Assembly (NCBI RefSeq): GCF_016097555.1
Contig: NC_054702.1
Location: 107,600,628 to 107,664,627, forward strand
Direction of reading: 5' to 3'
DNA length: 64,000 nt
Source of the DNA: Gigantopelta aegis
Lineage: Eukaryota > Mollusca > Gastropoda > Neomphalida > Peltospiridae
Positions 19,401 through 51,399 of the stretch are shown one piece after another (positions within the stretch are counted from its first letter, which is position 1; every line of letters begins with the position of its first letter). A program made the translations under genes and the position numbers. The notes beneath the pieces were generated by a model, which was given only the letters and a program-made list of their open reading frames with translations, made no database searches and was not told where the DNA came from.

Positions 19401-22358
19401 CCTTGTCTGGGCCATATCTTCCTTATCAGTTCATGAATATATGATCATCAAACCTTGTACCGGTATGCAAGTACAACTTGGGATGGTGGTATGTTACGTC
19501 ACATTCTTTTGACAGGTGTACTCTTGTTCAATTATACTCTTAAAAAAAGTAGGGGAATTTAAAATGCAAATGTTGTTACCAATGATTGGAACAGAGACCA
19601 GCTTTCAAAAATGACTGCCTAGGAAAGAACGTTCATGGTTGCACAACCTAACACCCAAACACAGCCAAAAATATGCACGTGCAATATGCAGTAGCCCTGT
19701 ATATACGTTGGTACGGAGTCATTCGTGATTTTGCCACTTCACAGAATGGTCAATAAATCAAATCTCAATTCCTTCATTATTATCAGGCATCTATTCCTAG
19801 ACAGTGATACCTCTTGATACTTCTTTAATTGGCAGTTATTTCCTACATTCCTCTACTTTTTTTCAAGAATATAATATTTGATTTGGTAGGCATTTGCTTT
19901 TAATTGTACTACTCAAGTAATTCAACTTTATCACTCTTGTTACACTAGTTTCCTTTAGTGGTTCAAAATAACTATGTACAGTCTGTTGTTTAACTACAGG
20001 TGACAAGGAACAGATACAAAAGATGGTTCAAATGGCATGGACTTTTGTTAATGACAGGTTGGTGACCTTTTTTTAAAATGTACATTCCAGTACTATGCTC
20101 ACTGTCTTATTCTGTGGTGTTTTGCATTGCAACCACTTACAAGTGTTTCACCAAATTATCTATTATTCAATTTAAAATTGTAAAACTCCAGTTATTTCGT
20201 AACAAAATAGCAATTATTACATGAACTTATTCCACCTTAGCTTAGTAACTGGTTTAACGTGTCCATATACCACTAGGGTTTCGAACACGGTTTTATTCCA
20301 CCAAATTAAAATAAAATTTTCTAATTGTTTTGAAATTCACAATGGATGAATTTGTAGAGTGCTAGAGGTAGCCCTGCATACAGTCCGTGTTCTGTGTTTC
20401 TGAACTTGTTAAGATCAATGTTGCTATTTTCATTTCAGTAATTTAATTAATGTTATAATTGTGAGAGACTGATTTTTAAACATATTGTAGTCTTTATGTG
20501 TTTTGACGTTTACTTAAATTGTAACTTGAATATACATTGCAGTATGTGTACTACCCTGTGTCTTCAGTGGGAACCAGAGATCATTTCAGTGTCACTGATG
20601 TACCTGGCATCTCGGCTCTCAAAGTTCGACATTCAGGACTGGGACGGCAAACCAAATATCCCCGGCTGTCGGAAGAAGTGGTGGGAGTGTTTCATAGAGG
20701 ACATGTCCATGGAGCTGATGGAAGGTATTGTATGAGTGATTAATAAATCAGTGTGCTTTAGTGATATTGTTAAACAAAACAAACTTTATAAACTTTTTGT
20801 ATGAGTGAAATGCTGGCCTCTTCCTCACTTCACTGTAGTATTTCATAGTTTAACACCATACCATTCAGACCGTATGTGATTTTGTGTATATCTACACATT
20901 ACAATAGAATTATTCATGATCTTTTTGAGCTCCTATAAAAAAAAAAAATCGTCAATAATTTTGGTTTGGTTTCACGTAAGAAGAAAAGTAAAAATGTTTT
21001 GGAAATAACACAAAATGTCAATTTTAGTGTGCATTTGAAAAAATAATCGATTTTGAAATAAATTAAACTGTAATAGTAGTAAGAAAATGATACTTACAGC
21101 GTTATGGATGCCATTTTGGTTTATGGACTGGTGTAGTCTTGATACAAGATAACTCTATTTGATTAATTTCACTACAGAGTACAAGAAGAATATAATTGGA
21201 GTTATCTTAATAAAGCAAGACTATACCAGTCCATAAACCAAAGAGGCGGCCATAACTCTGTGTCATTTTTTTACTATGGTAGGCCTGTGTATTACAGTTT
21301 TATTTATTTCTAAACCAATTTTTTTTTTAATTACACACAAAAAAATTAATTTTTTGTTATTTCCAAAACACTTTTACTTTTTTTCTTACATCAAACCAAA
21401 CCAAATTTATTTTTAAATACAAGCAGTTCTTATGTAATTACAAACATAGGAGTGTGTGCAGAGGGTGGGTTTTGTCAGTTTAACCCTCCCCTTGATCAAG
21501 CAAATGTTTCTATTTTTTTCAATGCTTTTTCCGGGGAACCATTTCTTAACCCCCTCATAATTTTTTCTAGCCACAGTTTAGCCCCCACCTTCTTATAAAA
21601 TTTATGCACAAGCATATTTAGTTAAAATACACATAAATCCACTTCTAACGTCCTTTTCTTGACCTGTTTTATGTAATGGCGTCCCAGCTGGTGTAATGAC
21701 ATAATTTTTTGAGGTTTATCAAAGGATAAACTTTAGTTTTTCTTTGACTATGTCCAATCAAAATAGAGTAAATTGTATAAATGCAGAAAGTGTGTAAGTA
21801 TAATAAATTAACACCTTTAGCATGAATTGTAATAAGTTAACAGTTTTAATTTGTTTTGTAATGAGTTAATTTTTCTGTCTCTTACTGCAGATATCTGCCA
21901 CCAGGTTCTGGATCTGTATTCTAACAAAGGGAAGACCATAGAGGATTCCCCTCCTCCTAGTCCGCCCCCTAAGGAAGACAGTGTCACAAGAACTCCAGGA
22001 TCACGGTCAGGGTCAGCAACACCTGTGAAGAAACCAGTTAAAAAGGTAAAGATCTCAACTGAATGGAATATTGTTGTTTTAATCGCTATCAAATTTGCTA
22101 TACTTTTTTGCTTTACATCTTTGTTTCATTATGGGGCAGGGCATAGCCCAGTGGTAAAGCGCTCGCCTGATGTATGATCAGTCTAGGATCAATTCCCATC
22201 AGTGGGCCCACTGGGTTATTTCTCATTCCAGCTGTGATATGTGCTATCCTGTCTGTGAAATGATACATATAAAAGATCCCTTGCTACTAAGGCCAAACAA
22301 AAAAATAGGTGTGTTTCTGATTGCATCCCCCAAAAAATTAGGGTAGGTAGGTAGGGTT

Positions 22359-22389
<31 letters not shown>

Positions 22390-22416
22390 TTAATATTGAA
22401 TACTATCATAATAATA

Positions 22417-22449
<33 letters not shown>

Positions 22450-25400
22450 TATCATCATCATTATTGTTATTGTTGTTGTCATTGTTGTAGCAGTAGTAGT
22501 AGTATTGGTATGCACTGTTTGTGTATTTCCTTAAATTAATGGGACATTTGTATTAATTTCGTTGTTCTTAATTTAAATACTTTATGCAAACATTTGAGAT
22601 GCATTAATAATAAGACCTGTTGATTTAAGTGAAGACGAGAATTAAGCTGAATTGATACGATTATATTTAATCGAAATAACCTGTACCAAGGCTATGTTCG
22701 TACATTCAGTTACTTCCGTGACCAACTAAGCTGTTCGGTGGTAGCTAATCAGGGGAAGGAACTCTATTACAAAAGCTTTTCCATAATTTCTCGATGTTTT
22801 TCGGAAGGGAATTACATGTGCAAAATGTATCATATAATAGTACGTAAACAATATGCAAGGAAGGAAATACTCTTGTTTGGTAATGTTGTCCTCTTTTATT
22901 TTTACTTCTTTTTTTTTTTTTTTTTTTTTTTTTTTCATGTTTTTTTTTTTTTTTTTTTCAGTTTAAGAGAAAAAAAATTAGGGTCGGGGGGGGTAAAACT
23001 AGGGACGGTCGGTCGACCGGAAACACACCTATTTTTTTGTTTGGCCTCATGGAAAAATGTAGCAGGTTTCTTCTCTAAGACTATATGCCAAAATTTCCAA
23101 ATGTTTGACATCCAATATCCAGTGATTAATAAACAAATGTGATCTAGTGGTGTCAGTAAACATAACAAACTTTAACTGTTGTCTCGTTATTTTGAGGCAT
23201 CCTTTCTCTATTCTTGATAATTGTTTGATTCGGTGCATAATAGGTGTTACTGCAGTAACTGTTTCCCACTTAGAAAATATTAGCTACGAAATGTGACTGT
23301 TAGATGTGATGATAAAAACAGAAATGATGAATGTAAACATTAGATTGAATCAGAAATAAATCACAATAGAAGAAATTCTAGCTAAAAAAAATAAACATGT
23401 ATCCCAAAAAACTTTTATTTTTTTGAGTGCCAGTAGGATGTATCCATGCTGAAATATATAATGGTTTAGCGATATATGATTTTGTAATTGGGGTATTCTA
23501 TATTTAATGTATCTTTAAATAGACTTCATATTAAGTAGAGGATATAAATATTTATTTTTATGATAACGTTAAAGGAAATTGCACAAGACAAGGAGGTGGA
23601 GGCCCCTACGAGTAAAAAGGCTGTGGCAAGTATTCTGCATTGTGGCCTGCATGTAGATCTTTTGCTTCTCAAATACAACTAATAATGATGTTTTCTCTTA
23701 CTCTTTAGTTACAGTTAGTTTAGCATGTTCATCATATTCTGTTTGTATTAGTAATCAGATGTTTTTCTGTTTCCCTTCCATTACAGGCCTGTGGCTATTA
23801 CTTTTTCAATGGCAGCAACTTTTGAGTTTAGCTCAACATTAAAGTTTTTTATGTTTAGCTACATTTCTCAAAAACTATAATTCCTAGATCGATGAAACTT
23901 GGATGTTCATCACAAAGCATGTGAAATTTTATTCTTTTAAAATTAATTAATTTAATTAAAATGTTACTGACTTTTTTTTTTAATTTGAATTATTGAGATG
24001 GACATTTATGGATAGCTATCACTGAATAAGTTTATGGTAGGCGAGACATTTAAAACTCTGTAGAATCATGTTTTATAAGTTTAATAAAGGCAGCAAGTTT
24101 TTAAAATGTCATTAGTCATGGAAAACCTTTTTCCTGCGAGATGTATTCCAGCAACATGGTCAAATTTAAGTGCTGTTCAGATAATTTTAGATCATACATA
24201 ATGGACATAACTTCATATATTTGATACCCATAAACCAACCTACAAAACTATTTTATTGACAACAAATAATAATTTACCACAGGTATCTGTATATACTGTT
24301 AGAATTATTTGCTTTTTCATCTTTTGTAGCAATTAATGGCATCATTTGCATATTTTTATTGACAATTTTCTTTGTAGCTTTGTTCTAGTTTAGTTATCTT
24401 TACTTAGATCCTTTCCACTGTATTTATTAGATCTTTGAGATACATTGTTATAGTACTTCTAATTTTTAACCAGGTGAGATAAAACTAACATCATTGTGGT
24501 TTAGTGTTAAATTTTATTGTTATATTGTTAAAGCATTTCTTTTCTTTCATTTTTTTTTAAAAATTTAGATTATAAATTTTAAGAACTTGTATTTTTACTT
24601 ACACAAATAACTAAACATAGGAAGCATTTTTTGTAATCAACTGGAATTGAAAATGTGATTGTTCAAAAATTAACAGACATGTTTTGTTTTTCTTAAATTA
24701 AGATTATCATAAGATAGCACATTATTAGTTATTGGTTATTAGTTACTGGTAAATATATAGTTTAGTAAGTAGGTGTTAATTACTATTTGTTTCATTACAG
24801 ATGACCAAAATGGACAACCAGCGCGGCCACCATACAAAGGATGTTAAGAAACCTGTAAAGGTGGATTCCAAACAGCATAAGATCGAGCCAATCAGGACCC
24901 TGAAACGGCGAGCAGAACCTGTTCCTGAGAAAGATTCCGAGGTTCCACAGCCGCCGCCAGCGAGTGCACCAAACATTCCACCAGCCGCCGGGCCACCATC
25001 AGCTCAAACACCCGTGTCAGAGCCAGGCACCGGAGACCAGTACACCATGTTTAACCCATACGTGTCAACAGGGATGTACACGTCATCGTTCATGTCTCAG
25101 GAAGGCTCCCAGAACATCCAGACACTACTGACAGGTGGTCCTCCACCCCCTGCTGCTGCCAACCAGTATCCCCAATATCCTCAGCCTCCTCCAGCAGGCA
25201 ACCCAGCCTATCCTCCTGCAGGATATCAGCAAGGAGGGTATGGTCAGCCTCCTCCATCCTCCTATCCTCAGCCCAACTATCCACCTGTCAGCTCCGTCGC
25301 GTACAACGGATCCTACCAGGTGCCTCCCAGTTATTCAAGTCCTATGCCTGCTTACCCTAATGCTCCTCCACAAGGCCAGCCTCCTGGCTACCAGCCTCAG

Positions 25401-25622
25401 TCTTATCCCCCCTATCAGCAGTACCCTCCTCCCCCTATGGTTCAGGGCCAGTTTGCCCCAGGCCAGGCCCCACCAGGTCCTATGGGGGATCCAAGACAAC
25501 CCATGCCGGCAGGTCAGAACTATAATGCTGGACCAAGAGTGCCATGGACCCAGACAGCATCTCAAACATCTTCCACTGGTCTGGCTCAAGTTCGTATAAC
25601 AGGCACATCAGGCAGGAGATAG
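16435..25622 (+). CDS. CCNK: Cyclin K, multi-exon gene
   Basis: Exons read by splice sites and phase: 16435-16571, 17682-17763, 18109-18240, 19046-19151, 20000-20057, 20543-20724, 21891-22045, (optional 23575-23625), 24801-25622. The product is 557 codons, or 574 with the optional exon; human cyclin K is about 580. It opens [10 protein letters not shown] as in insect cyclin K. Cyclin box 1 carries [24 protein letters not shown] and [17 protein letters not shown] (about residues 30-110). Box 2 carries [28 protein letters not shown] and [19 protein letters not shown] (120-235). The tail from about residue 285 is Pro/Gln/Tyr-rich. In the known family cyclin K activates nuclear CDK12/CDK13, which phosphorylate the RNA polymerase II CTD and support long-gene and DNA-repair transcription. 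The acceptor at 16426 lies 8 nt before the chosen ATG, so an upstream exon (5' UTR, or extra N-terminal codons joined in phase) must exist and was not located. Introns hold SINEs and MITEs. Next gene downstream is SETD3, same strand. Confidence 0.96.
16990..17312 (+). mobile_element. tRNA-derived SINE in CCNK intron (family B head, type-2 tail)
   Basis: Head with A-box-like GATGTAGCCCAGTGTTAAAG and B-box-like GGGATCGATCTCC. Body TATCAAAGGCCGTGATGTGT and CATATAAAAGATCCCTTGCT. Tail GTGGTCCTTAACCATATGTC then GTGCGTCGTTAAATAAAACA. Here the family B head is joined to the tail also used by the family A copy at 1387. Confidence 0.88.
18526..18958. mobile_element. hAT-type MITE in CCNK intron
   Basis: Ends TAGGGTCTCCACGAGT and ACTCGTGGAGGCCCTA are inverted repeats with one mismatch. 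Flanks CTCTGTAT (18518-18525) and CTCTATAT (18959-18966) form an 8-bp target duplication with one difference, as hAT elements make. Subterminal GAGTACTCGAG words are repeated. 433 bp, noncoding. Confidence 0.88.
19240..19515 (+). repeat. Diverged copies of the 146-bp repeat family
   Basis: GGATCATCAAACCTTGTATG and AACTTGGGATGGTGGTATGT with CACCATGACCTACTTTTCAT occur about twice. They match the 146-bp tandem unit at 43558-43958. Located in a CCNK intron. Confidence 0.6.
19533..19873. mobile_element. MITE with TATACTCTTAAAAAAAGTAG ends
   Basis: Left end ATACTCTTAAAAAAAGTAGG faces right end CCTCTACTTTTTTTCAAGAA with few mismatches; TA dinucleotides flank both. About 340 bp, noncoding, in a CCNK intron. 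A Tc1/mariner-type TA target is possible. Confidence 0.72.
20735..20790 (+). mobile_element. SINE 3' tail next to the CCNK exon 6 donor
   Basis: GTGATTAATAAATCAGTGTG then TTAGTGATATTGTTAAACAA and AACAAACTTT form a family B tail with no head. It starts about 10 nt after the exon's donor at 20725. Confidence 0.7.
20955..21410. mobile_element. Large palindromic element in CCNK intron
   Basis: Left arm TTTGGTTTGGTTTCACGTAA and GTTTTGGAAATAACACAAAA pair with right arm TTGTTATTTCCAAAACACTT and CTTACATCAAACCAAACCAA. Nearer the centre GGTTTATGGACTGGTGTAGT faces ACTATACCAGTCCATAAACC. About 450 bp, no coding sense. Arm fragments recur at 33290-33345 and 43295-43350. Confidence 0.85.
22133..23174 (+). 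mobile_element. tRNA-derived SINE (family B) split by a nested element
   Basis: Left half 22133-22290: GGCATAGCCCAGTGGTAAAG, CTAGGATCAATTCCCATCAG, ATAAAAGATCCCTTGCTACT. Right half 23047-23174: GGAAAAATGTAGCAGGTTTC, ATGTTTGACATCCAATATCC, CTAGTGGTGTCAGTAAACAT. Other copies read continuously across this point (CTACTAATGGAAAAATG), so the 756-bp element between is a later insertion. Confidence 0.9.
22291..23046. mobile_element. PIF/Harbinger-like MITE nested in a SINE
   Basis: Perfect 27-bp terminal inverted repeats starting GGCCAAACAAAAAAATAGGT and ending in its complement. Flanks TAA (left) and TCA (right) fit a 3-bp target duplication with one change. GGCC ends and a 3-bp target point to PIF/Harbinger. 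The interior holds G, ATT and T simple repeats (22371-22389, 22413-22452, 22911-22960) and no transposase. Related subterminal words occur at 39995-40055. Confidence 0.85.
23457..23555 (+). repeat. Near-identical 97-bp repeat, copy 1 (CCNK intron)
   Basis: GCGATATATGATTTTGTAAT through AGACTTCATATTAAGTAGAG is repeated at 26683-26779 with only about two or three differences. Same orientation, 3.2 kb apart, class unknown. Confidence 0.85.
23575..23625 (+). CDS. CCNK: Possible optional 51-nt CCNK exon with a GC donor
   Basis: Between the exon ending at 22045 (phase 0) and the one starting at 24801 (phase 0) lies a 17-codon open stretch, [17 protein letters not shown]. It is preceded by AAAG and followed by GCAAGT, the usual hexamer of GC-AG introns. 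It is phase-neutral, so the protein is in frame with or without it. The Lys/Glu-rich composition matches the neighbouring KKPVKK and KDVKKPVKV ends. Its polypyrimidine tract is weak and the base before the donor is not ideal, so it may be alternative or spurious. Confidence 0.45.
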
Positions 25623-35593: not shown

Positions 35594-38500
35594 ATGGGCA
35601 GGAAGAGTAGGAAAGGCGGGGGGAAGACGAGTCCACCCACCACGGGTGCCACTTGTGAATCACCCACTCTGTCCAAGGCAGCCAGGAAGGAGATCGGCGA
35701 ACTTGTCAGTCAGCTCTTACAAGGTATTTGCATATCGTTCCTTTTAACAGTTAGAAATTTGATCATACACATCATTTCAAGTTATATAAAGAGTGCTAAC
35801 TTATATATAATTTTTATGTTGCTGAAAAAAGTTTAATAATATTTAATTTTCATGTGGGTTACTATCATATATACAGTGAAACCCTGCTATTGCGACCATT
35901 GGCAGGACTTATTAAAATTGATCTTAATGGTCCTAATACCATTCAAAATTGTTGTTAAATATTGATTGTGAATTTTACGCAGTTTAGTGACACTGCAGTA
36001 CATTGTGTTTATTTACAGTGAACATTGTTTTTAGAATATTAAATGTACATCTAGATTAACGTTTTTCTTTAACTGGTTAATCACTGCATTATAAATAATA
36101 ATTATACTATATTAATAAAACCGGAGGTCACGAGAGTGGATTTGAAACAGTATTTGTAAAATCATGTTAAGTGCTGATCCTATGTTCTGCAATTTTGTTT
36201 TGTATTTGAATTAATATAAAACTGTAAGCAGCTGAACATATTTACATGTGTTTGTCATGATAGTTTATTATACTGACAGTCTGCTCAAAGCCAGTGGCTA
36301 CCGGAGTGAAGGAATGGGAAGACTACCCTGAGATCCACGGACTGATTGAGAAAATTAGAAAACTCCAGTCACGTTAGTCTGCTTTAGTAATAATATTTCA
36401 CCATAGTAATTAATCTTTGTTCAACAATCTATAAAAATATTGCTTTATCTTTTAAAATGACTTACATGTATTCCAAAAGTTCTTATAATTTCTGTTTTTA
36501 ATGTTAAATTAATGGAAAGAAGTGATCTCCTGACATGGCATCAGATTTAATCTCTGAATATATGGAAAGGAAATTTTCTTAGTGAGCACTGTATATTTAA
36601 AAGTACATGTACTAAAAATAAATATATATTTTAAGTATTTAAAAATAGATGGCCTGTGTAAATATTTTCTATAGTTTCAGGTGGTTTTTATGGTAAATTT
36701 TATAACAGCAAATTATTTGATTGATTATCTTATTTATCTTATTTTATTAGCAACAAACATACAATATTTGTGTGTAGTTTATTTACAATGTATTTGTTTT
36801 CTTGATATAAAAAAACAATTGTATAATGAAGATCTATGTAATATTTTCATCATTCTCATGTTTGGTTTTTATATTTTGTTTCATAATAATCTGTATTTCA
36901 GCTCTTGCCCCAGCTGAGAAGAACCGAGAGGAGTTCTTCCCCGCATTCCTGGGCTGGCTAAAGGAGAATGGTGTGCAGACCAATTCTGTTGAGATTGTTA
37001 ATTACCCCAGTTTTGGTTTCGGCCTACAGGCAAGACAGGATCTAAAGGTGAGAACTTTTCTTATTGTCAGGGCTGGCTAAAGGAGAATGGTGTGCAGACT
37101 GATTCTGTTGAGATTGTTAATTACCCCAGTTTTGGTTTCGGCCTACAGGCAAGACAGGATCTAAAGGTGAGAACTTTTCTTATTGTCAGGGCTGGCTAAA
37201 GGAGAATGGTGTGCTGACCGATTCTGTTGAGATTGTTAATTACCCCAGTTTTGGTTTCGGCCTACAGGCAAGACAGGATCTAAAGGTGAGAACTTTTCTT
37301 ATTGTCAGGGCTGGCTAAAGGAGAATGGTGTGCTGACCGATTCTGTTGAGATTGTTAATTACCCCAGTTTTGGGTTCGGCCTACAGGCAAGACAGGATCT
37401 AAAGGTGAGAACTTTTCTTATTGTCGGGGCTGGCTAAAGGAGAATGGTGTGCAGACTGATTCTGTTGAGATTGTTAATTACCCCAGTTTTGGGTTCAGCC
37501 TACAGGCAAGACAGGATCTAAAGGTGAGAACTTTTCTTATTGTCAGGGCTGGCTAAAGGAGAATGGTGTGCAGACTGATTCTGTTGAGATTGTTAATTAC
37601 CCCAGTTTTGGGTTCGGCCTACAGGCAAGACAGGATCTAAAGGTGAGAACTTTTCTTATTGTCAGGGCTGGCTAAAGGAGAATGGTGTGCAGACCAATTC
37701 TGTTGAGATTGTTAATTACCCCAGTTTTGGGTTCGGCCTACAGGCAAGACAGGATCTAAAGGTGAGAACTTTTCTTATTGTCGGGGCTGGCTAAAGGAGA
37801 ATGGTGTGCAGACCAATTCTGTTGAGATTGTTAATTACCCCAGTTTTGGGTTCGGCCTACAGGCAAGACAGGATCTAAAGGTGAGAACTTTTCTTATTGT
37901 CAGGGTGGGACATAGCCCAGTGGTAAGGTACTTGTTTGATGCACAGTTTGTCTGTGATCGATTCCCATTGGTGGGCCCATTGGGCTGTTTCTCGTTCTAG
38001 CTAGTGCACCACGACTGGTATATTAAATGCCGTGGGATGGTGCATATAAAAGATCCATTACTATCAATGTAAAAATGTAGCGGGTTTTCTCTAAGACTAT
38101 ATATCAAAATTATCAAATGTTTGACATAAATGGCCGATGATAAGAAATCAATGTGCTCTAGTGGTGTTGTTAAACAAAACAAACTTTACTTTCTTCCTAT
38201 TGTCAGTATAAATCATTCCTGTATTTCACAATGTTCTTTGTTTCAAAATCTTTTGAAATTAAACAGTCAGATGTTTAACATCTTTGACGTCTTAATGGCA
38301 GTATGTTTATTATTAGAATTAATGATGTCATTTTAATCCATTTACCTGATTGTATTTCACAGGCTCTCACAAAGGACTTATTAGGGATGATTATTTTCAA
38401 AATAAAAATTTGTCATAACATTTCTTACTGTTTTTTAAATGATGCTTATTAGTGTCATGTAATAATCTCACGGGAATGTGTGTCATTTTATTAATACAAT

Positions 38501-40390
38501 TTACGCTAATAAATGTATGCATTTCATAATTCATGTAGGCATTCTAATGGCTTTTTTTAAATTAAAAATAATAATAATAATGACAGAAAACCATCAAAAC
38601 AGACTTGAAATTAAATGTGTATTTTCAGGAACCTGAGTTATTCCTGTCCATACCTAGAAAGCTCATGATGACAGTTGATTCTGCTAAAAAATCTGGTCTA
38701 GGTTTGTATTCTGTTTGAATTTGTTAATCTATAAAAGATGGAACCATAGGAACTATTTGTACAAAGGCTTAATGTTATCTTTGTGAATTTCAATCTTTGA
38801 GTTTGGGCAATAGCCCTACCCCTATCTGCTAGTGTCATGTTCCTAGCTACGAGGCAATCTAACCGTTAACCACATGTTGATTGAAAATTATGCACATGCT
38901 GCAACACAACTGCTCATGTATTTCATGTTTATCAGAATTAACCATTTATACAAAGAATATTGCTTGGGCCTGGTAGGGGACATGTATTGCTTTAGCAGTA
39001 CTGTCAGATTGCTTGTTTTTCTAGGTGCAGTCTATGCAGAAGACAAGATTATGCAAGCCATGCCAAACATAACACTAGCTTTACATTTGCTGTGTGAGAA
39101 GAAAAAGGCGGATTCCTTCTGGAAGCCCTATATTGGTATCCTTTCATACCTGCAGGCTACATAGCAATAAATCAGCAAAATATAAGTTCATTTGAAGTAA
39201 AACTAGATGTTTATAATGTTCTCTAGACATTTTATTGTAGTGGAACATACACACAGTGACACAGTATGTATTCGAAGTCAGGTAATCTTTGTAAGCCTTT
39301 AGTAGGTCAGCTGCTGTGTAGTACAGTGAACCTCCTCAAAACTGGACCCTCTGTAAACTGGAATTCCATCAAAACAGTCCCTTTTTGGATCTTAGTACAG
39401 AACAGAACTTCTTTAACTGGATACCCCTTAAAACGTGACTTTTTACTTGGTCCAGTTTACAGGGGTTCACTGTTTATCATAAGTAATCAAATGTAGGACC
39501 GTTACTTTCTTTGTTAGGTCTTTATTCTAGTCTATGTATAGTGTTATCTCTTCTAGACATATAGCTCATCATTAGCAGTAGAATAAAGAATTTGTTTTTT
39601 GGGAAGGATTTTTTTTCTCCATAATTTATTTTTCTAATTGTGGTAATTTGTTTTGTTAATTTCCTGACTCTCATTAAGACATTCTCCCATCTTCCTACAC
39701 GACACCGCTGTATTTTGGAGAAGATGACTTGCAGCATCTCAAGGGATCTCCAGCACATGGTATTTAGTTATAACATGATCACATGTCAGGCTTGTGGTAG
39801 TTAATGGTGCTCTTGGTTAATCAACAATTACTGTAAACCAGGGGGAAATCTGTGCTTATAAATTATGCATCGTTCGCACCCATCCTCAAGTTGCGAAATT
39901 TATACACATGCATAATTTTTATTCCAGATATCAACAGTTGTTCACGAAATTTACCAGATTACCTATTAATAAGGCGTATCATAAAATATTATTTGTTTCC
40001 GGTTACCCGACCAACCCTAATTTGAACCTGCCGACCCTAAAAACTTTTTTTGTATATCCAAAAATGTTTTTTTTTAATATAACAACGATTTCCACGAAAA
40101 CATTCCAAAACTATCACAAGCACTAATTTGGTGTCATTTAGGGGATAACCCTACTGTGTTTTCCGATTTACGGACGTATATCGGTGGTTTTACTGTCGCA
40201 AATTTAGTTTTATTGGCGACCCGTTAGCCACGAAATGTTTTCTTCTGACAATTGATTGATGGAGTTATTTCCCTTCAAATTTAGTTCGGTAACTTTCGTG
40301 AGATATCAGGTGAAGAGTCGGAAAATTGTTTTCACGAATATATGCGATCTTTTCCGATTTTCTCTACATCTAGCATAGCGAGGTGTTCCG

Positions 40391-40426
<36 letters not shown>

Positions 40427-43400
40427 TATATTTAATGATTTACTCCAGCGACAAACTGGCCTTGTAGAAATTTAGTGACCTTCTGATAAACTAGGGGAGG
40501 GAATGTTTACCGATACTGATGGAGTTTACTGCCAAATCAAATGATTAAATATGTCAGTAACATCTCGATGCGTTTTGTTATTTTTTGTAAGTGGTTACTG
40601 GGAACTTCGCGGGTTTCCACTAAAAACAGTGTCAAAATGACCATGTGTTTGACCTCCCAATAGCCGATGATATTAAAGATAAAAATCAATGTGCTCTAGT
40701 GGCGTCATTAAATAAAACAAACTTTACTTTCAACATTCGTTTGAGCATCCTGAGCATTTGTACTGTACATATTTCTATTCATTGGAGCAATTGATTGCTT
40801 CAAACCAAGTGTGTACTTTAATACTGGATGCATACAGAATAAAACTAACATTGCAAATTATAAAATTGATAAATCTACCATTTCTTAGATACACTAGGAA
40901 AGATAATATTCATAACATTTTTTTATAATGTTATTGTTGGACAGATAAATATAGAACCCTTCTTTTCAGTTTTCATTAAAATAAATTGTTATAACTTATT
41001 TACTGGTTTCTATCAATTAAGGTTCAACCAAGTCTGTCCTGGTTAAGTGTTAGTATGAGAGTAAACCTTCTGCCTATTATTAAACAGCAAGGGGTCTTTT
41101 GTATGTACTCTCCCACAGATAGGTTAGCACCATGTTGCCCTCAAAATCAAAATGCCTTGCCTTTTATAAATTTATAAGTTGCCCATGTAAAAAGAAACCT
41201 TTAAACACACCTATGTGGATAGTACTACATACATGTGTATTTCCTTTTTTTAATTAAGTTATGAAATAGATATAGAAAATAAAATGGCCATACGGTTTTT
41301 GTCCTTTTGGAAATTGTATAATGGAGAAAAAAAGCCCTTATATTTAAAACTGCACATAAAATATGCCCCCAAAACGTCACTTTACCATGCCGTACTTCAT
41401 TTCTAGGGAAAACACTGTGATGAATGGTATTGTTGGTTTGCATAATGCATTTCTATACATGTAGAGGTTATTTTGGATACCGGTAGTCAACACCTTTATT
41501 TAATATCCATAAATAAAATTATTTTCCAAAATAAAATGTTTTTCCTACCTACCTACCCTATATTTTTCCAGCATGTAATAGGAAATGAGTAAAAAAAAAA
41601 TTCCAGCCTAATATACAATGTATATACCAGATGATTTTGTTTTCGATGCTTACACTTTGTTTATACTATAATTTACTACTGAAGAATTGCATGGCTTAAA
41701 CTTAAAGATGGCACCGATGGCAATTGCCATTGTGATATAAATTGCTGTATGTCAGGTGAGTCACCGATGGCACTTCCGTGATGCAGGAAAAAAATTATTG
41801 CCATAGGTACAGTAAAATAACCTTTCATCAATTTCCTGCAAAATGCTGTAGGTGGGCCATTTCAACTGGCAATATTTTTAAAAATTGCTGTGTGTGGCAA
41901 ATTCTTATGTTTGAGCTCTGGAATTGGCAATTGTTGTGGTTTAATAATTCCAGAAAACATTTGTGTGTATGTTTGAAGGGGAAAAGTCACTTCTTGATTT
42001 GTACACAAACTACATTGTGTAGATATGCTAATATTTCTGATTGTAAACTGTTTTTTAATATAAAATTTAAGCTATTATGTTTTAGTTGTTTACATATATT
42101 TGATGTTTTGTAGGTGATTCATTGAGCCAGTATAGAAATATTGCCAGACAGTATGCATATTTCTACAGACTGTTACAAGTAAGTAGTACATTTAAATGAT
42201 ATGGAAGGAATTAATTCATCTACAATATAATATTGTTATTAACTGTTTATAATTTTTATATTCATCAAATTTGCTTTGAATTTTTTTTACATGTTCACAG
42301 TATTCACATTTATATTTCATTAAAGTTGAAAATTTAGTTTTCAAAGAGTATAATTTCAAAATTGTTGTTTATAATATTTGGGCGGGACTTAGCCCAGTTG
42401 TAAATCACTCACTTGATGCAGGGTTGGTCTAGGGTCAATCCCCATTGGTGGGCCGATTGGGCTATTTCTCGTTCCAGCCAGTTCACCGTGACTAGTATAT
42501 CAAAGGCTGTGGTATGTGCTATCCTGTTTGTGGGATGGTGCATATAAAAGATCCCTTGCTACTAATGGAAAAATGTAGCGGGTTTTCCCTGATGACTAAG
42601 TGTCAAAATGACCAAATGTTTGACATCAATAGCCGATGATTAATAAATCGATGTGCTCTAGTGGTTAAAGAAAGCAAACTTTGATCAAACGTTTAGTATT
42701 GAATCAGTAATGATTGATAAGCTCCCTTTTTATTGTAGAAGAGTCCGGCAGCTTCCAGTCTTGCCATTAAAGACAGCTTCACGTTTGATGATTACAGGTA
42801 ATCTATTTCCCTTGGCGGATCCACCAGGTCTTTCCCGGTCCCAACCACTTCATAGCTAGCTAGTGTATTAAGGACAGTAGTGTGTTCTGTCCTGTCACTG
42901 GAAAAGTGCATATAAAAGATCTATTACTGCTGTTTGGTAGTAGTCTGTGTGTGTTTCCCCTCTAACTAGACCAGGTGGTTTTTTTTCCTCCCATCCAGTG
43001 CCCCACAATTGGTATATTTCAGAATTACCACATGTTTGACATCCTATAGATATTGATAAATAAATCAATGTGCTCTAGATGTATCATTAAACAAAGCAAA
43101 TGTTTAACACTAACTGGACCCAGTGTCAAATAGCCACGTTAGACACAAAATACATGTAGCTGTAATTTAAAATCTTTCGGAGTGCCTTGAACAAACATTC
43201 ATTTTCTTTTCATTTCTAAAGCTGTGTGCGAAATGTTTACAAGTGAATCTATAGTCCTTCCCAGGCCCCTATAAACAATGGTTTTTGTAAAAAAAAAAAT
43301 TAACTTTGATTTGATAAATGAAAAAAGTAAAAGTGTTTTTGAAATAACAAAAAAACACTATTATTGTGTACGATTTAGAAAACTATCAGCTCAAAAATAA

Positions 43401-46400
43401 ATAACTGGTAGTAAATACCATACTAAGAAAACTGCATTCTCCGTGGGAAACACTAATGCACTAGTTTTTACTTGTTACTTTTTATATGCCCGTCTATGAT
43501 GGGTCGTATTATGGTATGGTGTTGTCCGTGCGTACACCCATCTGTTAACTTTTTCTTGTCCAGACCACATCTTGCATACATATGCATACAGGACCATCAA
43601 ACTTCACATGTAGGAACAACTTGGGATGGTGGTGTGTTGCGTAGTATTACTAGGTCACTGTGACATGCTTTTCATGGTCTACTGCACATAACAGTAAATC
43701 ATTGTCTGGACCATAGCTTGCATACACACGCATACAGGACCATCAAACTTCACATGTAGGAACAACTTGGGATGGTGGTGTGTTGCGTAGTATTACTAGG
43801 TCACTGTGACATGCTTTTCATGGTCTACTGCACATAACAGTAAATCATTGTCTGGACCATATCTTGCATACACATGCATACAGGACCATCACACCTCACA
43901 TGTAAGAACAACTTGGGATGGTGGTGTGTCACATACAATTACTAGGTCACTATGATTTAAATAAATTAAATAATTTGTCTATATTCTGGACATCATATGA
44001 AAATCTTGTTTAGCACATATGCATATTTCTTGGCAGTTCTGTATTGTTAACATTACATACATAAACTGTTTCTCTGCCAACATAAATATGTCACTAGAGT
44101 ACCCATGCTAAACAAAATTTCCTTTTCAAATAAGGAACAATAACTTCATTAATCAGAGCACCTTCTTCAATGGATACAGTATCATCAGTAGTTGATCCAA
44201 AACAAACTGTTCATCCACCCCATTGCAAAAATTTCACATAATTAGAATTGAATCATACCCATAACATATTAATATCTATGGTTTTGCATCAAACTCCTAA
44301 TGGGCGTATCATGTACCTCACCGGTACTCTTGTTTCTCATTGTTTACGTAATATCATTCTGTTTAATCTACTACAGATGGGCTGTCTCATCAGTGATGAC
44401 ACGACAGAACCAGATTCCAACACCAGATGGCTCTCGAGTGACCTTTGGCCTTATTCCACTGTGGGACATGTGCAATCACACCAATGGATATGTAAGTCTA
44501 ACAGTTTATCACAGGTTTGTGTGTCTGGTTGGGCAGTGTCGATAACTGACATGGAAATTAGTTATTGAAAGGTTATAATTCAGTCATTTATGTTGATTTC
44601 TTAATCTGTAATAAGTACACAGTTTAGAAATCTGATATGACTGCAATAATTTGCTGGGTTATTCTTCTAACATTTTAAAATTTAAAAAAAGGAAAGAACT
44701 GACATATTTCAATATATAGAATTATTTGTTGGCACTTATATTGGTTGAATATATAGAGAATCACTGGTTACTGCTTAAGATATTCTGTGAAAGATAGAAT
44801 GGCTAATGCCATGATTCTCTTCAAACCAACAGTCACTGTTTGATCTGAGCAGGATAAAGCCAATATCTTAAAGCAATAAGTTATTTTATTTATCCTGGAA
44901 TTTAACAAGAATACTTTGGAAAATCATAGTTATTCCAGTTTTCGTACACAAATTGTGTCGCATCAATCTTAATTCGTAAACGAGTTTTGTTAACTATTGA
45001 GAGTAATGATAAAATGAGTATGTAATTGAGAATGTAGTCTGAAGTAAACCAGTCAATTCGGGCGTATGTCATGTGACTTAAATGTTTTGTCAATGACAAA
45101 AAAACTCAGAAATTTGTCTAGTTATTTTTTCTTGCCAATGTATATAGTGATTTCAGGATAAATTGAGATGTATAGTAGGCTCCTTGAATAACAGTAAACG
45201 ATTTTGTTTTCAGTTTACTGCGGACTTCAATGTTGAAAAAGACTGCAGTGAATGTTTCTGCTTGAGAGATTTTAACAAGGATGAACAGGTATATGGGCGT
45301 TAGCTTATGAACAGGTATGTGGGTGTTAGCTTATGAACAGGTATGTGGGCGTTAGCCTAATGAACAGGTATGTGGGCGTTAGCCTATGAACAGGTATGTG
45401 GGCGTTAGCCTATGAACAGGTATGTGGGCCTTAGCCTAATGAACAGGTATGTGGGCGTTAGCCTAATGAACAGGTATGTGGGCGTTAGCCTAATGAACAG
45501 GTATGTGGGTGTTAGCCTAATGAACAGGTATGTGGGCGTTAGCCTAATGAACAGGTATGTGGGCGTTAGCCTAATGAACAGGTATGTGGGCGTTAGCCTA
45601 ATGAACAGGTATGTGGGCGTTAGCCTAATGAACAGGTATGTGGGCGTTAGCCTAATGAACAGGTATGTGGGCGTTAGCCTAATGAACAGGTATGTGGGCG
45701 TTAGCCTAATGAACAGGTATGTGGGCGTTAGCCTAATGAACAGGTATGTGGGCGTTAGCCTATGAACAGGTATGTGGGCGCTAGCCTATGAACAGGTATG
45801 TGGGCGCTAGCCTATGAACAGGTATGTGGGCGTTAGCCTATGAACAGGTATGTGGGCGTTAGCTTACAAATGGCTGCATAACAAAGTCATCCATTTATGA
45901 GAATGCGAAGGTTATCTTCAAAGACAAGTGTTTGTTTGAGCAGGTTTCAGTTTGTAGAGAGTTCATGTTTGCCTTTTTGATTTCAATAGCATTGCCATAA
46001 TTTGATCTTGTTTATTTTTCGTGTCTGTATCTTGCAGGGGTGGGACGTAGCTCAGTGGTAAAGCGCTCGCTTGATGCACGGTCGGTTCAGGACCGACCAC
46101 CGTCGGTGGCCCCATGGAGCTATTTCTCATTCCAGCCAGTGTTCCACAACTGGTGTAACAGGCTGTGGTATGTACTATCCTGTCTGGGATGGTGCATATA
46201 AAAGATCCCTTGCTGCTAATTGAAAAGAATAGCCCATGAAGTGGCGACAGCAGGTTTCCTCTCTCTATGTCTGTATAGTCCTTAACCATAATTATGTCTG
46301 ATGCCATATAACCATAAATAAAATGTGTTGAGTGCATTGTTAAATAAAACATTTCCTTCCTTCAGTTGTCTTGCAATTTGTGTTATTCCTAACATTTTAT

Positions 46401-49400
46401 TATTTTAAGTGTTTGTATTTTATTAACATAGTATTATTATTAAAAACCTCTAGTATTTATACTGTAAATTGATATGGCATGTTTTTGTTGTTGCCAATAC
46501 TGGCATGTTGCTTTTTTTAATGTTTCAGATTTACATTTTCTATGGTGCCCGGTCCAATGCGGAGTTTCTTGTTCACAATGGCTTTGTTTATCCTGAAAAT
46601 GAAAATGACAGATTATGTCTAAAGTTGGGTGAGTATACTTTGTTTATTGTGTTTACAGTCATTACTTTATTGAGTTCTTAACACAAATGTTTAGAAATTA
46701 AAGGCATATTGTCACAGACCACTGACCTATTACATCGCCTAACAAAGTATTACTGAAAAGTATATATATTTCATTTGTCTCTAAATGTACTTTATTCAAC
46801 CATCTACGTAACCAACATACTCCACTTATTAATGATATTTTGTAAAAATAATTGAATTATGGCAATGGTCCATAATTCAAAAACTAACATTGCTGAGAGG
46901 GTTGACATGGATTTCACTCCATCATGGTGTAGTTAAAGTGATGCAATAACTAGATTTGGTCTGTAAAAATTAATGTAATTTTGATTTATTATTAATTTTT
47001 AGAGAAATAAGGTCCTTAAGTCTGTGACAGTATGCCTTTAAGAACCCAAAATTTAGCTGGCTAAATGAATTATTTCTACTTGACTTTTTTTGTTTTAAAT
47101 AACTGAATGATATAGTGAATATGTTTTATTATTTTTCACAGGTATTAGCAAAGGAGATCCTCTATTTGTTTTAAAGTCAGAAGTGCTGTCAAAAGTAGGG
47201 CTGGAATCGTAAGTGTGTTTGTAGAAAACGTGCTTCACTCAAATACATGCTCAAATTCTTGTGGTACTATTTAGCTAATTAGTACAAAATTTAAGCTCAT
47301 ACTATTAGCATCTGGCAATAAAAAAAATTAATTGTTAGTTTTACTAACATTTTCAGGTGGGGAGGGTGGGGTATTTCCAGATGCCTAAAATGCTACACAG
47401 AAAAAAGGGAAATAAACATGTTTGTTGTTATTTACAAATTTGTTATTAAATATGTGTGTCAAATTTCAGTTCAGTTTATATTTTGCAATTTGGGTATACT
47501 TTGTGGTTAATTACATTATATTTTTTAAATACTCTGCAGCTTTAGTTTTAGATAATTTAGTCAAATTAATTAACAATCATCTCGTTTGCACCATTAGGAG
47601 ACTATTTTGGATGACCATTTTAACTATCTAATCTTCAGTTGTGAAGAATGTAGCCTGAGGAGAGTATCACCTGAAATGTATAGAGCAGGGACATCCTTAA
47701 CTACAGGTGTCTTATAAGTTGATTGTTATCACAATATATTAGGGGATTTTATCCTGCAACCACCGTTTCTATTGACAGAATAGGATGATGATTAAAACTA
47801 AATCATAGCCTGCTACTAGAAGGATATGACTTTTGACATCACATGCATAGCTACATACATAGCAAATCACTCATTTCACTTCTAGGTCATCGTACAATGT
47901 GGCTGAAATAGCAGAAATAATAGCTTTTTCCCTTCCATTCTTATGGTCTGCAGGATAAAGATAATAACTAGTTAATGACGTCTAATATTTGCTTTATCCT
48001 GTTGAGGCCGAATGAGAAATTCCGCTCAGCATTTTCCATTATTACCTTCACAGAATAAAGCAGATATCTGATGTCATTAACTAGTTATTATCTTTATGTA
48101 ATTATATTCGCCTTTTACAGCGGGAATCCAACAAAACTTAACATTTGTAATGAAAGTGATTTATGTCTAAACTTTTCTCAATTTGGGATTTTTGTACAGT
48201 GTAATAAGTTATGTGTTATTTTAGTTCTCGGGCATTCTTCCTCCATTGTGGTGACAATCCGATTGATGGAGATCTTTTGGCATTTCTCAGAGTGTTCAAC
48301 ATGGAAGAAGGTGAGTATCTCTGAACACGTTTAGTGAAGTTCTGTTAGAACCACTAAACCACTGTCATTTTGTATACTAATTGTACTTATCTTATCTTCC
48401 ATTAGTGTTTCAAATACAGACGAAAAAAGTACATATAAAAGTTGTTTTGCTTTTAATAGAAGGAAAATGAATAGCTTATGTGGTAGAAGGAGAATTCTTC
48501 TCCGTAGTAAACTGTGTTACAATTATCTTCTTTGATGCTGCTGATTATACTAATGGTCTAAGAGTGTATTTAACAATGTTAATTTATTTCTCTTTGCTTT
48601 TAAACAGGTAAATGCACTTAGCTAGAGAGATGAGTGATGAGGTTATGTATTTATAAAAAGACAAAAGATTTAAGTTTTCTTCAGTTTCCTTTTGGTTAGT
48701 AAAATGTTTGTAATACTTTTATTTCAGAGCTCTTAAAAGAAAGGTTTTCTGGAGAAATGGCCGCAGAAAATCTGCAGAAGTTAAAGGAATTGGAGCATCC
48801 TGTTAGTCCTGAAAATGATCAGAAAGTTTGGAATTTCATAGAAATGCGAGCCTCATTGATACTGAAGAGCTACCCAACAACAAGAGAGGTAAGAAAGATA
48901 TTTGTTTATTTTGGGCATACATTATATGTGCCATCAATTACAAAATGTTGAATTTTTGACAATTATCATGGATGCAATTGATTGGATATATGAAGTTGTA
49001 AATGGATGAGGTGTTGCGGGTTGATGGGGAATGTTGCCATGCAGTTCATTCAAAAGGCAATTCACTCAGTCAATCAATCAACCATGTGACTCGTGCTTAC
49101 AGCCACTGAAGGTTCAAGCACGACTGTCTTTGGCACATTCTCCGAGATTGCCCGGTGGATGTATCCAAGACAGGGGGCGATATACCAGTCATGGTGTACT
49201 GGCTGGGATTCTCCGAGATTGCCCGGTGGACGTATCCAACACAGGGGGCGATATACCAGTCATGGTGCACTGGCTGGGATTCTCCGAGATTGCCCAGTGG
49301 ATGTGTCTAAGACGGGGGATTCACCTGCAGCCTTCATTGAGGTATTTAGTATTTCATGATTTAACAGTCACACCAATGGCAACTGCCTTATTTGCAAAAT

Positions 49401-49761
49401 GAATTGCCATAGGTCAAGAGCTTTTCGACTGACAGTTTTTTACCATTGCATATTATTGCCATTGGTTTAAAATTGCTGAAGACAAATTGACATAGGTGAT
49501 TTTAAAATTGCAGTAGATATTAAAGTTCGAGCTGTGTATTTGCCACAAGTGCTCCCCCCGCACCATTTTTAGTTTTTAAATTCATCCATGTTGTTTAATG
49601 TTTTTTTGCAGGATGATGAAGAAGAGTTACAGAAGGAGGGTCTGTCTGAACCCCACAGACTGGCATTACAGCTGAGAGTGTGTGAAAAAACTATTTTACA
49701 AAACACTGTCAAATACGCTGCAAAAGCAAAGCAAGAAGAGACTGTTGAAAATGGCACCTAG
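35594..49761 (+). CDS. SETD3: SETD3, actin-histidine N-methyltransferase, multi-exon gene
   Basis: Exons: 35594-35723, 36280-36372, 36902-37047, 38629-38701, 39025-39135, 39679-39759, 42114-42178, 42739-42797, 44377-44491, 45214-45288, 46529-46628, 47142-47208, 48225-48310, 48728-48888, 49612-49761. They join in phase to 503 codons. SETD3 methylates His73 of actin in the cytoplasm (family knowledge). The N-terminus MGRKSRKGGGKT resembles human MGKKSRVKTQ. The split SET domain includes FLSIPRKLMMTV, SSVMTRQNQIPTPDGSRVT (Asn264, human Asn256), LIPLWDMCNHTNG (Asn286-His287, SAM site) and IYIFYGARSNAEF (Tyr321, human Tyr313); the constant +8 offset supports the model. The C-terminal part (about 350-500) is the Rubisco-LSMT-type substrate-binding domain. 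The human protein has about 90 more residues, mostly a low-complexity tail missing here. The ATG exon starts at an acceptor (35582/35583), so a noncoding first exon lies upstream. Exons 3 and 10 each end in a tandem array that copies their donor. Confidence 0.96.
35870..35945 (+). mobile_element. Possible pogo/Tigger-like end
   Basis: ACAGTGAAACCCTGCTATTG followed by CGACC resembles the typical pogo/Tigger terminus. A matching right end was not found nearby, so this is a fragment at most. In SETD3 intron 1. Confidence 0.35.
36952..37903 (+). repeat. 119-bp tandem array spanning the SETD3 exon 3 donor, 8 units
   Basis: Unit starts: 36952, 37071, 37190, 37309, 37428, 37547, 37666, 37785. Each holds 96 nt of exon 3 (32 codons, GWLKENGVQTNSVEI to QARQDLK), the donor AAG|GTGAGA and 23 nt ending CTTTTCTTATTGTCAG, a good acceptor. 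All copies stay open; they differ at a few sites (QTN/QTD/LTD; one FSL for FGL). Unit 1 is the exon proper. A SINE begins at the array's right edge. Confidence 0.97.
37904..38192 (+). mobile_element. tRNA-derived SINE (family B) in SETD3 intron 3
   Basis: GGTGGGACATAGCCCAGTGG, GTGATCGATTCCCATTGGTG, GGTGCATATAAAAGATCCAT and tail AATGTGCTCTAGTGGTGTTG then TTAAACAAAACAAAC. It joins the 119-bp array with no spacer. Confidence 0.87.
38971..39016 (+). repeat. Dispersed-repeat end just before the SETD3 exon 5 acceptor
   Basis: TGGTAGGGGACATGTATTGC then TTTAGCAGTACTGTCAGATT matches the end of the 3331 family in reverse complement and 57449-57492. It ends about 8 nt before the acceptor AG at 39023-39024. 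Confidence 0.7.
39324..39472. mobile_element. 149-bp pogo-like MITE
   Basis: CAGTGAACCTCCTCAAAACT with CTGGACC faces GGTCCAGTTTACAGGGGTTC with ACTG. The ends resemble pogo/Tigger-type CAGT…ACTG termini; a TA flank is present on the left only. SETD3 intron. Confidence 0.65.
39990..40060. repeat. Fragment related to the 22291 element
   Basis: TTTCCGGTTACCCGACCAAC and CTGCCGACCCTAAAAAC resemble the subterminal sequence of the Harbinger-like element read in reverse complement. No full element. Confidence 0.4.
40395..40426 (+). repeat. (AAT)n microsatellite
   Basis: About ten AAT/ATA triplets. Confidence 0.9.
40610..40733 (+). mobile_element. 3' part of a family A SINE
   Basis: GCGGGTTTCCACTAAAAACA, TGACCATGTGTTTGACCTCC and tail AATGTGCTCTAGTGGCGTCA then TTAAATAAAACAAAC. 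Confidence 0.8.
42380..42682 (+). mobile_element. tRNA-derived SINE (family B) before SETD3 exon 8
   Basis: GGGCGGGACTTAGCCCAGTT, GGGTCAATCCCCATTGGTGG, GGTGCATATAAAAGATCCCT and tail GATGTGCTCTAGTGG. It ends about 55 nt before exon 8. Confidence 0.86.
42825..43105 (+). mobile_element. Decayed SINE relic after SETD3 exon 8
   Basis: AAAAGTGCATATAAAAGATC, CAGAATTACCACATGTTTGA, AATCAATGTGCTCTAGATGT and ATTAAACAAAGCAAA mark the body and tail of an old family B copy. Confidence 0.65.
43280..43350. repeat. Fragment of the 20955 palindromic family (SETD3 intron)
   Basis: AAAAGTAAAAGTGTTTTTGA then AATAACAAAAAAACAC matches the left arm of that element. Confidence 0.5.
43558..43958 (+). repeat. 146-bp tandem repeat, about 2.7 units
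   Basis: Units start at 43558, 43704 and 43850 with GTCTGGACCATA-type sequence and contain ACAACTTGGGATGGTGGTGT and CACTGTGACATGCTTTTCAT. Older relatives lie at 19240-19515. SETD3 intron. Confidence 0.85.
44196..44332 (+). repeat. Dispersed repeat, copy 2 (pair at 3135)
   Basis: AACTGTTCATCCACCCCATT through ACCTCACCGGTACTCTTGTT. It ends 44 nt before SETD3 exon 9. Confidence 0.7.
45281..45866 (+). repeat. 26/27-bp minisatellite spanning the SETD3 exon 10 donor, 22 units
   Basis: Each unit is ATGAACAGGTATGTGGGCGT plus TAGCCTA or TAGCCT. Unit 1 (45281) is the last 8 nt of exon 10 plus its donor CAG|GTATAT; the other 21 carry CAG|GTATGT, a stronger donor match. Units are 26 bp at the array edges and 27 bp in the middle. 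Use of any later donor would read into a TAG shortly after the true exon end. Confidence 0.96.
46037..46354 (+). mobile_element. tRNA-derived SINE (family B head, type-2 tail) before SETD3 exon 11
   Basis: GGGTGGGACGTAGCTCAGTG, GGTGCATATAAAAGATCCCT, ATAGCCCATGAAGTGGCGAC, and tail AAATGTGTTGAGTGCATTGT then TAAATAAAACATTTCC. Same head-tail combination as 16990. Confidence 0.88.
47954..48097. mobile_element. 144-bp hairpin MITE in SETD3 intron
   Basis: ATAAAGATAATAACTAGTTA and ATGACGTCTAATATTTGCTT face AAGCAGATATCTGATGTCAT and TAACTAGTTATTATCTTTAT around a loop with GGCCGAATGAGAAATTCCGC. Confidence 0.8.
49137..49330 (+). repeat. 71-bp tandem repeat, about 2.6 units (SETD3 intron 14)
   Basis: Units at 49137, 49208 and 49279 begin ATTCTCCGAGATTGCCCGGT and include GGGGGCGATATACCAGTCAT. 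The flank GGTTCAAGCACGACTGTCTT looks like SINE family C sequence, so this array may also have grown in a SINE. Confidence 0.85.
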
Positions 49762-50040
49762 CACTAAGCAGTGCCTGGTGTCTTCACACACAAATTTCAC
49801 TTAACTCTTAAATGTCACTTCTATTTTAACTTTTTTATAAGGTGAATCTTTATTTTATTTTTATTTTTTTGTAATTTTAATTCTATTTAAGATGAAAATT
49901 TGACACATAAGAAGTTATGACAAAAAAACAATTACTTGGACTAATTTTCATATTTTTTTCTATTGACCCTACATGTAGTGTGTTTGAGACATCTCATTGT
50001 GGAGATGTCTGGTGCTATTGTTTGCTCAGATCATCATTGT

Positions 50041-50358
50041 ATATTCCCTGGTTTGTAGTGATCATGTGGGTGTTATATTCATATTCCTTGACTAAAAGAA
50101 AGGTATATTCCCTGGTTTGTAGTGATCATGTGGGTGTTATATTCATATTCCTTGACTGAAAGAAAGGTATATTCCCTGGTTTGTAGTGATCATGTGGGTG
50201 TTATATTCATATTCCTTGACTGAAAGAAAGGTATATTCCCTGGTTTGTAGTGATCCTGTTGGTGTTATATTCCTATTCCTTGACTGAAAGAAAGGTATAT
50301 TCCTTGTTTTGTAGTGATCCTGTTGATGTTATATTCCTATTCCTATACTTAAAGAAAG
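50041..50358 (+). repeat. 64-bp tandem repeat, 5 units, downstream of SETD3
   Basis: Units start at 50041, 50105, 50169, 50233 and 50297 with ATATTCCCTGGTTTGTAGTG. The last two are more diverged. It lies about 280 bp after the SETD3 stop, possibly in the 3' UTR. Confidence 0.88.
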
Positions 50359-51399
50359 GGGACAAATGTCAGTACCATGTGATCTACACACAAACAGACA
50401 TTTTTAAATAACTGTCCCTTAATGTTTTTACACATAAATTGCACATGCATTGTGTATTTGACCCAGAACAAAATGATCTACATCTGAACCAACTATTGTG
50501 AAGTTAACAAATTTAATATCACTAGAAAGTATCATTATGTTAAGAGAAAAGTGACACGTAGCCAGATAAAAACAGTTAATTTCATAATCAGTCTCCTGTG
50601 TTTTCTGTGAAAAACAAAGACATCTGACGGTAGATTCCGAAATTTGTCTGATTGTCATACTTGTCACTTTAAAGCCTACTGCAGACGAGAGCTGCCAGCT
50701 AAGAAAAACGTTACTTAAGACATTTTGCTCAGCTGTAGGCTCCTAGCAATTTCACTGCACACAATGAGCTACGTGCTGAGCTAGTTTGCTTACAACTGTC
50801 ACAATGACGTCAAGATGACTCAATTTTCGTGTTGGCTAATTCAGCTCAGCTGATGGCATACGTAGCCTGCACACAGTGAGATTTTTGCCATGCGTGGCCA
50901 GAATATCAAACACGATAGATATTTTTCTCATGACCAAATCTTTTTTTTTGATGCCTTTGATTTATTTACTCAAATTTATCAACATGTAGTACAACTGGTT
51001 GTGTTCTGTTTGCTAATATATTGCTGGTTCTGGCAGATTTGAAGAGTACCAGTCTTGTATGCATTTGTTTTCATTTTAATCATATCACTGCCTAGAACCG
51101 ATATTGTCTATTGCTTCTGTTATATCGACAAATCCTGGTAGTGTGACTACAAAAAATTGTGATTAAATCTTTGTCTTCTGTTAATGTCTTACGTTTGGAG
51201 GTCATTTACCATTATTTAAGTGAGTAGATATTCAGAGAATTTTTACATTTTAGAACTGCAATGGGCCTGTTTTCCATTAATGTGATTCTGTGCACGATTT
51301 ATTATGTGTGTTAACATGCACGGAAATGTGCTTTTCGAAATCTGCATTTTCACAAGTGGATTATTATACAGAATTTGACGTTGAAGCTGCAGCTTTATA
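50359..51399. other. SETD3 downstream flank
   Basis: AT-rich DNA, no gene recognised. No clear AATAAA within 500 bp of the SETD3 stop; the SETD3 3' end is undefined. Confidence 0.35.

Follow-up and report, generated by a model that had tools for sequence, protein, structure and literature searches.

A SETD3 gene of Gigantopelta aegis with tandem arrays over two of its predicted splice donors

Tandem exon duplicates are whole exons with acceptors of their own. How they and smaller repeats at exon edges behave is described in several papers. In tandem exon duplication with alternative use, the exon copies are able to substitute for each other (PMC9741552). Work on human ABCA7 describes a 25-bp VNTR that includes the donor of exon 18, with use of the next unit's donor leading to a frameshift; the VNTR is linked to disease, and greater length goes with more skipping of exon 19 and lower expression (PMC5954066). 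In the same account the unit-retention isoform is unchanged with VNTR length and only the skipping of the next exon varied. Retention is thus unrelated to length, and an array with a larger number of decoy donors will not necessarily see them used more often. Human CBS has a 31-bp VNTR, c.1444_1467+7(16_21), which by its name comprises 24 exon and 7 intron nt in 16-21 copies (PMC2630376). In a published duplication an intron 7/exon 8 junction is present one additional time (the site is termed donor in the part of the text available), and there it is the distal site that is used. Literature on VNTRs, splice donors and competing 5' splice sites includes PMC12783039. Duplication across a splice signal can also create introns with new donor/acceptor pairs, and in fission yeast such introns span several copies (PMC4974935). 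The papers retrieved on SETD3 with tandem repeats and splicing were unrelated, judged by title and abstract opening, and a paper on earthworm metallothionein has minisatellites in introns, donor arrays being absent from the portion of its text available. How does the SETD3 gene of the gastropod Gigantopelta aegis compare with these systems?

The window analysed is a stretch of 64,000 nucleotides, and the gene in question is, judged by sequence match and by its two domains, SETD3, of the actin-histidine methyltransferase class. The hand-drawn model of 15 exons yields a single open frame of 503 codons plus stop when the first donors are used, and both PF00856 (SET) and PF09273 (Rubis-subs-bind, the Rubisco-LSMT substrate-binding domain) are above cut-off in the 503-aa protein. 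A PDB search with exons 3-4 returned chains named SETD3 (E 3e-17 to 4e-17, 67 residues gap-free), so that the gene name given in the preliminary description holds. Against the human SETD3 sequence, the model has 53% identity over 492 columns. Searched against its own 1.149-Gb assembly, the protein gave 22 matches, every one at the present locus, and SETD3 is therefore apparently single-copy in the assembly; a scan of viral_contigs for SETD3 relatives found none. CCNK-like exons lie upstream of SETD3 at 16427-25622 on the same strand, and CCNK and SETD3 are neighbours in human as well. Features of the gene and of its two arrays are collected in the table.

Table. Features of the SETD3 locus (positions in the window; a slash in a splice motif marks the exon edge)
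Feature	Position	Strand	Remarks
SETD3 coding exons 1-15	35594..49761	+	From homology and splice motifs, boundaries set by hand
SETD3 exon 3	36902..37047	+	146 nt, ends at first donor; last 96 nt are unit 1
Array 1	36952..37903	+	Eight units of 119 bp, each with 96 nt of exon and 23 nt of intron
Authentic exon 3 donor	37047..37048	+	AAG/GTGAGA
Identical donor copies	37166, 37285, 37404, 37523, 37642, 37761, 37880	+	
Gap ahead of unit 3	37167..37189	+	Example of 23-nt gap, GTGAGAACTTTTCTTATTGTCAG, with acceptor AG
Gap ahead of unit 5	37405..37427	+	Ends GTCGG, acceptor AG lost
Gap ahead of unit 8	37762..37784	+	Ends GTCGG, acceptor AG lost
Left target-site duplication	37895..37903	+	TATTGTCAG, also end of last array 1 unit
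SINE, presumably tRNA-like	37904..38197	+	Directly after array 1, in intron 3
Right target-site duplication	38198..38206	+	TATTGTCAG
SETD3 exon 4	38629..38701	+	Usual partner of exon 3 donor
SETD3 exon 10	45214..45288	+	Donor CAG/GTATAT
Array 2	45281..45865	+	22 units, 26 or 27 bp long, most of them ATGAACAG/GTATGTGGGCGTTAGCCT(A)

Other repeats are found in the window. Downstream of the SETD3 stop there is an array of 64 bp x 5 at 50039-50359 and one of 44 bp x 30 at 52172-53489, the latter with two open frames of 464 and 465 codons. On the other side of the gene, a 70-bp array of about 13 copies occupies 9998-10960 (a 140-bp dimer period scores better), and GTCATTTCGTACC-like units at 12388-12572 stand face to face with their reverse complement at 13066-13199, about 500 bp apart, like the ends of a foldback element. 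An uninterrupted run of 138 G at 1743-1880 is possibly a sequencing or assembly artefact. Elsewhere, G000:C1:719698-722732 is a large array of 32-34-bp units, most of them with a donor-like CAGGTGAGT, repeated dozens of times.

The first SETD3 array begins 50 nt into exon 3, and its unit covers the last 96 nt of the exon, the donor and 23 nt of the intron. The preliminary description had reported eight such units, each with its exon part in phase 0, a 23-nt gap and the same donor, and all of this is seen in the sequence (the donor in 8 of 8 units). The units have 98% matches, with 6 variable columns per 119 and pairwise differences of 1-4 bases, and eight copies at 98% identity cannot be chance. 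A whole-genome search with the unit, which skips very common words, gave 8 matches, all inside array 1; the array therefore probably arose in place. Could it be a false expansion made by the assembly? Tandem arrays are prone to such errors, and against this stand the differences of 1-4 bases between units, the size of the array (<1 kb in a 120.6-Mb contig) and the abundance of arrays in the genome samples described below, none of which is decisive; we regard an assembly error as quite unlikely. Like tandem exon duplicates, array 1 places copies of exon sequence beside the exon; unlike them, its unit starts inside exon 3, so that part of the exon is missing from the copies and the first 23 intron nt supply the acceptor-like site, instead of a whole exon being copied with acceptor and donor.

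A second array, absent from the preliminary description, is present in the same gene at exon 10, whose donor would normally be joined to exon 11 (beginning at 46529). It starts 8 nt before the exon end, and in each unit these 8 exon nt are followed by the donor, as the start of 18 or 19 nt of intron. A 130-bp query from array 2 gave 6 matches in the whole genome, all within the array. The unit sequences of the two arrays are unrelated, which suggests that SETD3 acquired its donor-spanning arrays in two separate events.

Measured against the homology-based gene model, the tandem unit of both arrays contains a real 5' splice site, and here the described systems come closest. As in ABCA7, the repeat starts at a real 5' splice site and multiplies the donor; the ABCA7 unit starts at the GT without exon, whereas every SETD3 unit includes exon sequence (96 nt in one array, 8 nt in the other), and a possible acceptor in the array 1 unit is a further difference (PMC5954066, available part). 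CBS is alike in that an exon end is repeated together with its donor, and it differs in that 7 intron nt leave little room for an acceptor and in that SETD3 has two such arrays in one gene (PMC2630376, available part). The intron 7/exon 8 case shares an exon edge and splice site in tandem, and in the text available the spliceosome strongly prefers one of the two; that case has one extra copy, SETD3 many copies of an exon-end donor. Compared with the intron gain described in PMC4974935, as far as its text was available, possible introns in SETD3 are enumerated only, and the distance from one unit to the next is too short for splicing. By sequence, the SETD3 arrays appear to share the CBS/ABCA7 anatomy, the unusual feature being two arrays in one gene.

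What set the edges of array 1? The SINE that follows it, which we assign to a tRNA-like family, is flanked on both sides by TATTGTCAG, as expected of an insertion with target-site duplication, and the position of these duplications means that array 1 ends exactly at the SINE start. Heads of further copies of the SINE are found at 22138, 42384 and 46042, and an exact search of viral_contigs with the SINE head found no match. The G-rich head (GGTGGGAC after the last G of the duplication) and the exon part with which the unit starts have GGG in common; given this shared GGG, a break at the SINE 5' end, joined by the short match, would explain both edges of the array. If the order was the alternative one, array 1 came first and the SINE inserted exactly at its end. 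The G variant at position 118 recurs three units apart (units 4 and 7), which suggests growth by unit blocks.

Is the placement of the arrays over donors special? Arrays were counted at periods of at least 14 and with three or more copies (fewer copies or periods under 14 being left out). There are 12 in the window (7.7%) and 7 in five 5-kb genome samples (8.6% of 25 kb); by the samples taken, arrays are common in this repeat-rich genome. For SETD3 and CCNK together, 2 of 21 donors (9.5%) and none of 22 acceptors are in local arrays, a count that includes a CCNK donor at 16577 that is not at a GT (misplaced by motif) and a CCNK acceptor at 17684 that is not directly after an AG. Random positions have local near-copies in 176 of 2000 cases (8.8%), in a control that weights expanded length, and since the two rates are about equal an enrichment of arrays at donors was rejected. 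A calculation from unit lengths (12 arrays, 21 donors) gives 0.15 donor-spanning arrays expected and P = 0.011 for at least two; taking array 1 as given, its position being the reason for its choice, the chance of another donor-spanning array is 0.11. Genome-wide, triplets of AGGTRAGT with 10-40-nt gaps show no excess (1763+1836 vs 2042+2108 for the reversed pattern), in a count of overlapping matches, not arrays, that covers one motif with short gaps which neither SETD3 array fits; this donor-like motif is therefore not enriched in tandem. Together, the two-gene count of donors against acceptors and the expectation from unit lengths would suit the idea that donor sites are preferred birth places for minisatellites in this genome. 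The near-random rate, with its length-weighted control, and the triplet count point the other way, and we find that idea highly improbable. That array 1 lies over a donor is at most a mild surprise, and two donor-spanning arrays in SETD3 are somewhat more than expected; we read the placement as an accident, with room left for a real donor excess.

Can the units of array 1 serve as extra exons? The preliminary description had proposed a good acceptor before each unit and six in-frame junctions from the exon 3 donor, with introns of 142, 261, 380, 499, 618 and 737 nt. The arithmetic is right, and most gaps do end in GTCAG with an AG, but the claim goes too far for two units. Position 118, the sole variable column in the 23-nt gap, is A in six units and G in units 4 and 7, and so the sites ahead of units 5 (37428) and 8 (37785) read GTCGG. 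Their AG being absent, the junctions 37047-37428 and 37047-37785, which make the 380-nt and 737-nt introns, are not normal GT-AG; four junctions remain, from 37047 to 37190, 37309, 37547 or 37666 (units 3, 4, 6 and 7). Nor does a retained gap meet a TAA at once, as had been stated: ten further codons come first. Adjacent units are too close to splice to each other. With a minimum intron of 60 nt (our choice), enumeration gives eight paths besides the normal one, each of which takes in one or two additional units of 32 codons, and in-silico translation stays open to the normal stop in all eight. Extra in-frame exons from units 3, 4, 6 and 7 thus seem possible on paper.

Splice sites were scored with approximate frequency tables rather than a trained model. 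In this scoring the array 1 donor reaches 6.58, the second-highest value among 14 SETD3 donors; the authentic exon 10 donor scores 2.22 and the further donors of array 2, CAG/GTATGT in 21 of 21, score 5.77. Of the 724 intronic GTs that lie outside the arrays, a single one reaches the score of the array 1 donor, and likewise a single one that of the array 2 decoys; the donor copies of both arrays are therefore strong donors. The intact internal acceptors of array 1 score 4.41, above 6 of 14 real SETD3 acceptors and above that of exon 3 itself (1.46). In SETD3, 34 of 605 intronic AGs reach this score, counting the four within the array, and therefore these acceptors are not exceptional. A branch-point-like CTAAAG, read from the sequence, has its middle A about 25 nt upstream of each internal AG. 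The last three bases of CTAAAG are the exon bases contacted by U1 at the donor. With the likely branch point beside and partly inside the U1 site of the neighbouring donor, recognition of the donor would be in competition with that of the acceptor, and any one stretch of about 30 nt could act as donor or acceptor, hardly as both together.

Does the openness of the copies speak for their use? All eight 32-codon segments are open, as the preliminary description had it. Their exon part has 5 variable columns, 3 replacement and 2 silent (expected replacement share 0.77, binomial P 0.33), and selection on the copies was rejected, the counts giving no signal. Five random changes would leave the frame open with probability 0.81; as openness is this likely without selection, open copies are uninformative. 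The loss of the acceptor AG at 2 of 7 internal sites fits an absence of constraint. On these grounds we consider it very unlikely that units 3, 4, 6 and 7 are optional exons, which would give the SETD3 protein one or two additional 32-residue copies of the segment just ahead of its SET domain. The eight in-frame paths, the score of the AG acceptors and the second-best donor of the gene would favour such exons; they have to be weighed against acceptors lost through the sole variable gap column, copies whose openness tells nothing, a branch point that would overlap the donor, the gap-free alignment of exons 3-4 to PDB SETD3 chains and the harm that an insert at the edge of the conserved catalytic fold would likely do. 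A bolder form of the same idea, in which we place hardly any confidence, sees array 1 as an expressed exon dispenser: since the donor, the branch point, the acceptor and the 32 codons of each 119-bp unit overlap one another, neighbours would exclude each other, only non-adjacent units would splice, and the menu would be set by repeat number. If this were true, SETD3 would gain one or two extra SET-leading segments.

What would the extra donors do instead? In silico, exon 3 extended to any further donor runs into a stop at codon 134 (7 of 7), and exon 10 extended in the same way into one at codon 321 (21 of 21). Exon 3 swapped for an AG-bearing unit gives an early stop at codon 85 or 88 (5 of 5); skipping of exon 3, 4 or 11 also leads to an early stop, and skipping of exon 10 stays in frame. 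Among the forms enumerated, only those that use the first donor, take in extra units or lack exon 10 are open to the end. We think it likely that the arrays are local minisatellites lying over SETD3 donors, that the first donors give the productive mRNA and that the extra donors either are neutral or reduce the output of the gene. Both arrays would have started as short tandem duplications across 5' splice sites and then grown, probably via slippage or unequal exchange. Productive mRNA would join the first donor at 37047 to exon 4 (38629), units 2-8 leaving as intron, and the first donor at 45288 to exon 11 (46529). Any one of the 7 or 21 donors further downstream, if used, would add sequence with a stop and yield an unproductive, NMD-prone mRNA, and disturbed recognition could lead to skipping of the next exon, with a frame shift in the case of exon 4 as well as exon 11. 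At exon 10 the decoys score higher than the real donor (5.77 vs 2.22), and strong mis-splicing might therefore have been purged unless the first donor is favoured. As a counterpoint to the minisatellite reading, the array 1 unit is unusual, with 32 whole codons and a fair acceptor.

A lowered output might also be what the arrays are kept for, as a selected dosage control of SETD3 through unproductive splicing. Two arrays within one apparently single-copy gene, stops in 28 of 28 extended forms and the lower expression reported for ABCA7 (PMC5954066, available part) are in line with this. Arrays are, on the other side, common in the genome sample and placed near chance, and unit retention in ABCA7 is independent of length (same source); selected dosage control seems to us unlikely. 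Under the minisatellite reading, the arrays would be either neutral or lower SETD3 output, and extra in-frame exons would be at most a minor by-product. SETD3 of G. aegis, with overlapping donor, branch and acceptor signals in array 1, would offer a natural test of how the spliceosome chooses among 8 or 22 near-identical donors, and of the way in which duplicating part of an exon might give rise to new exons.
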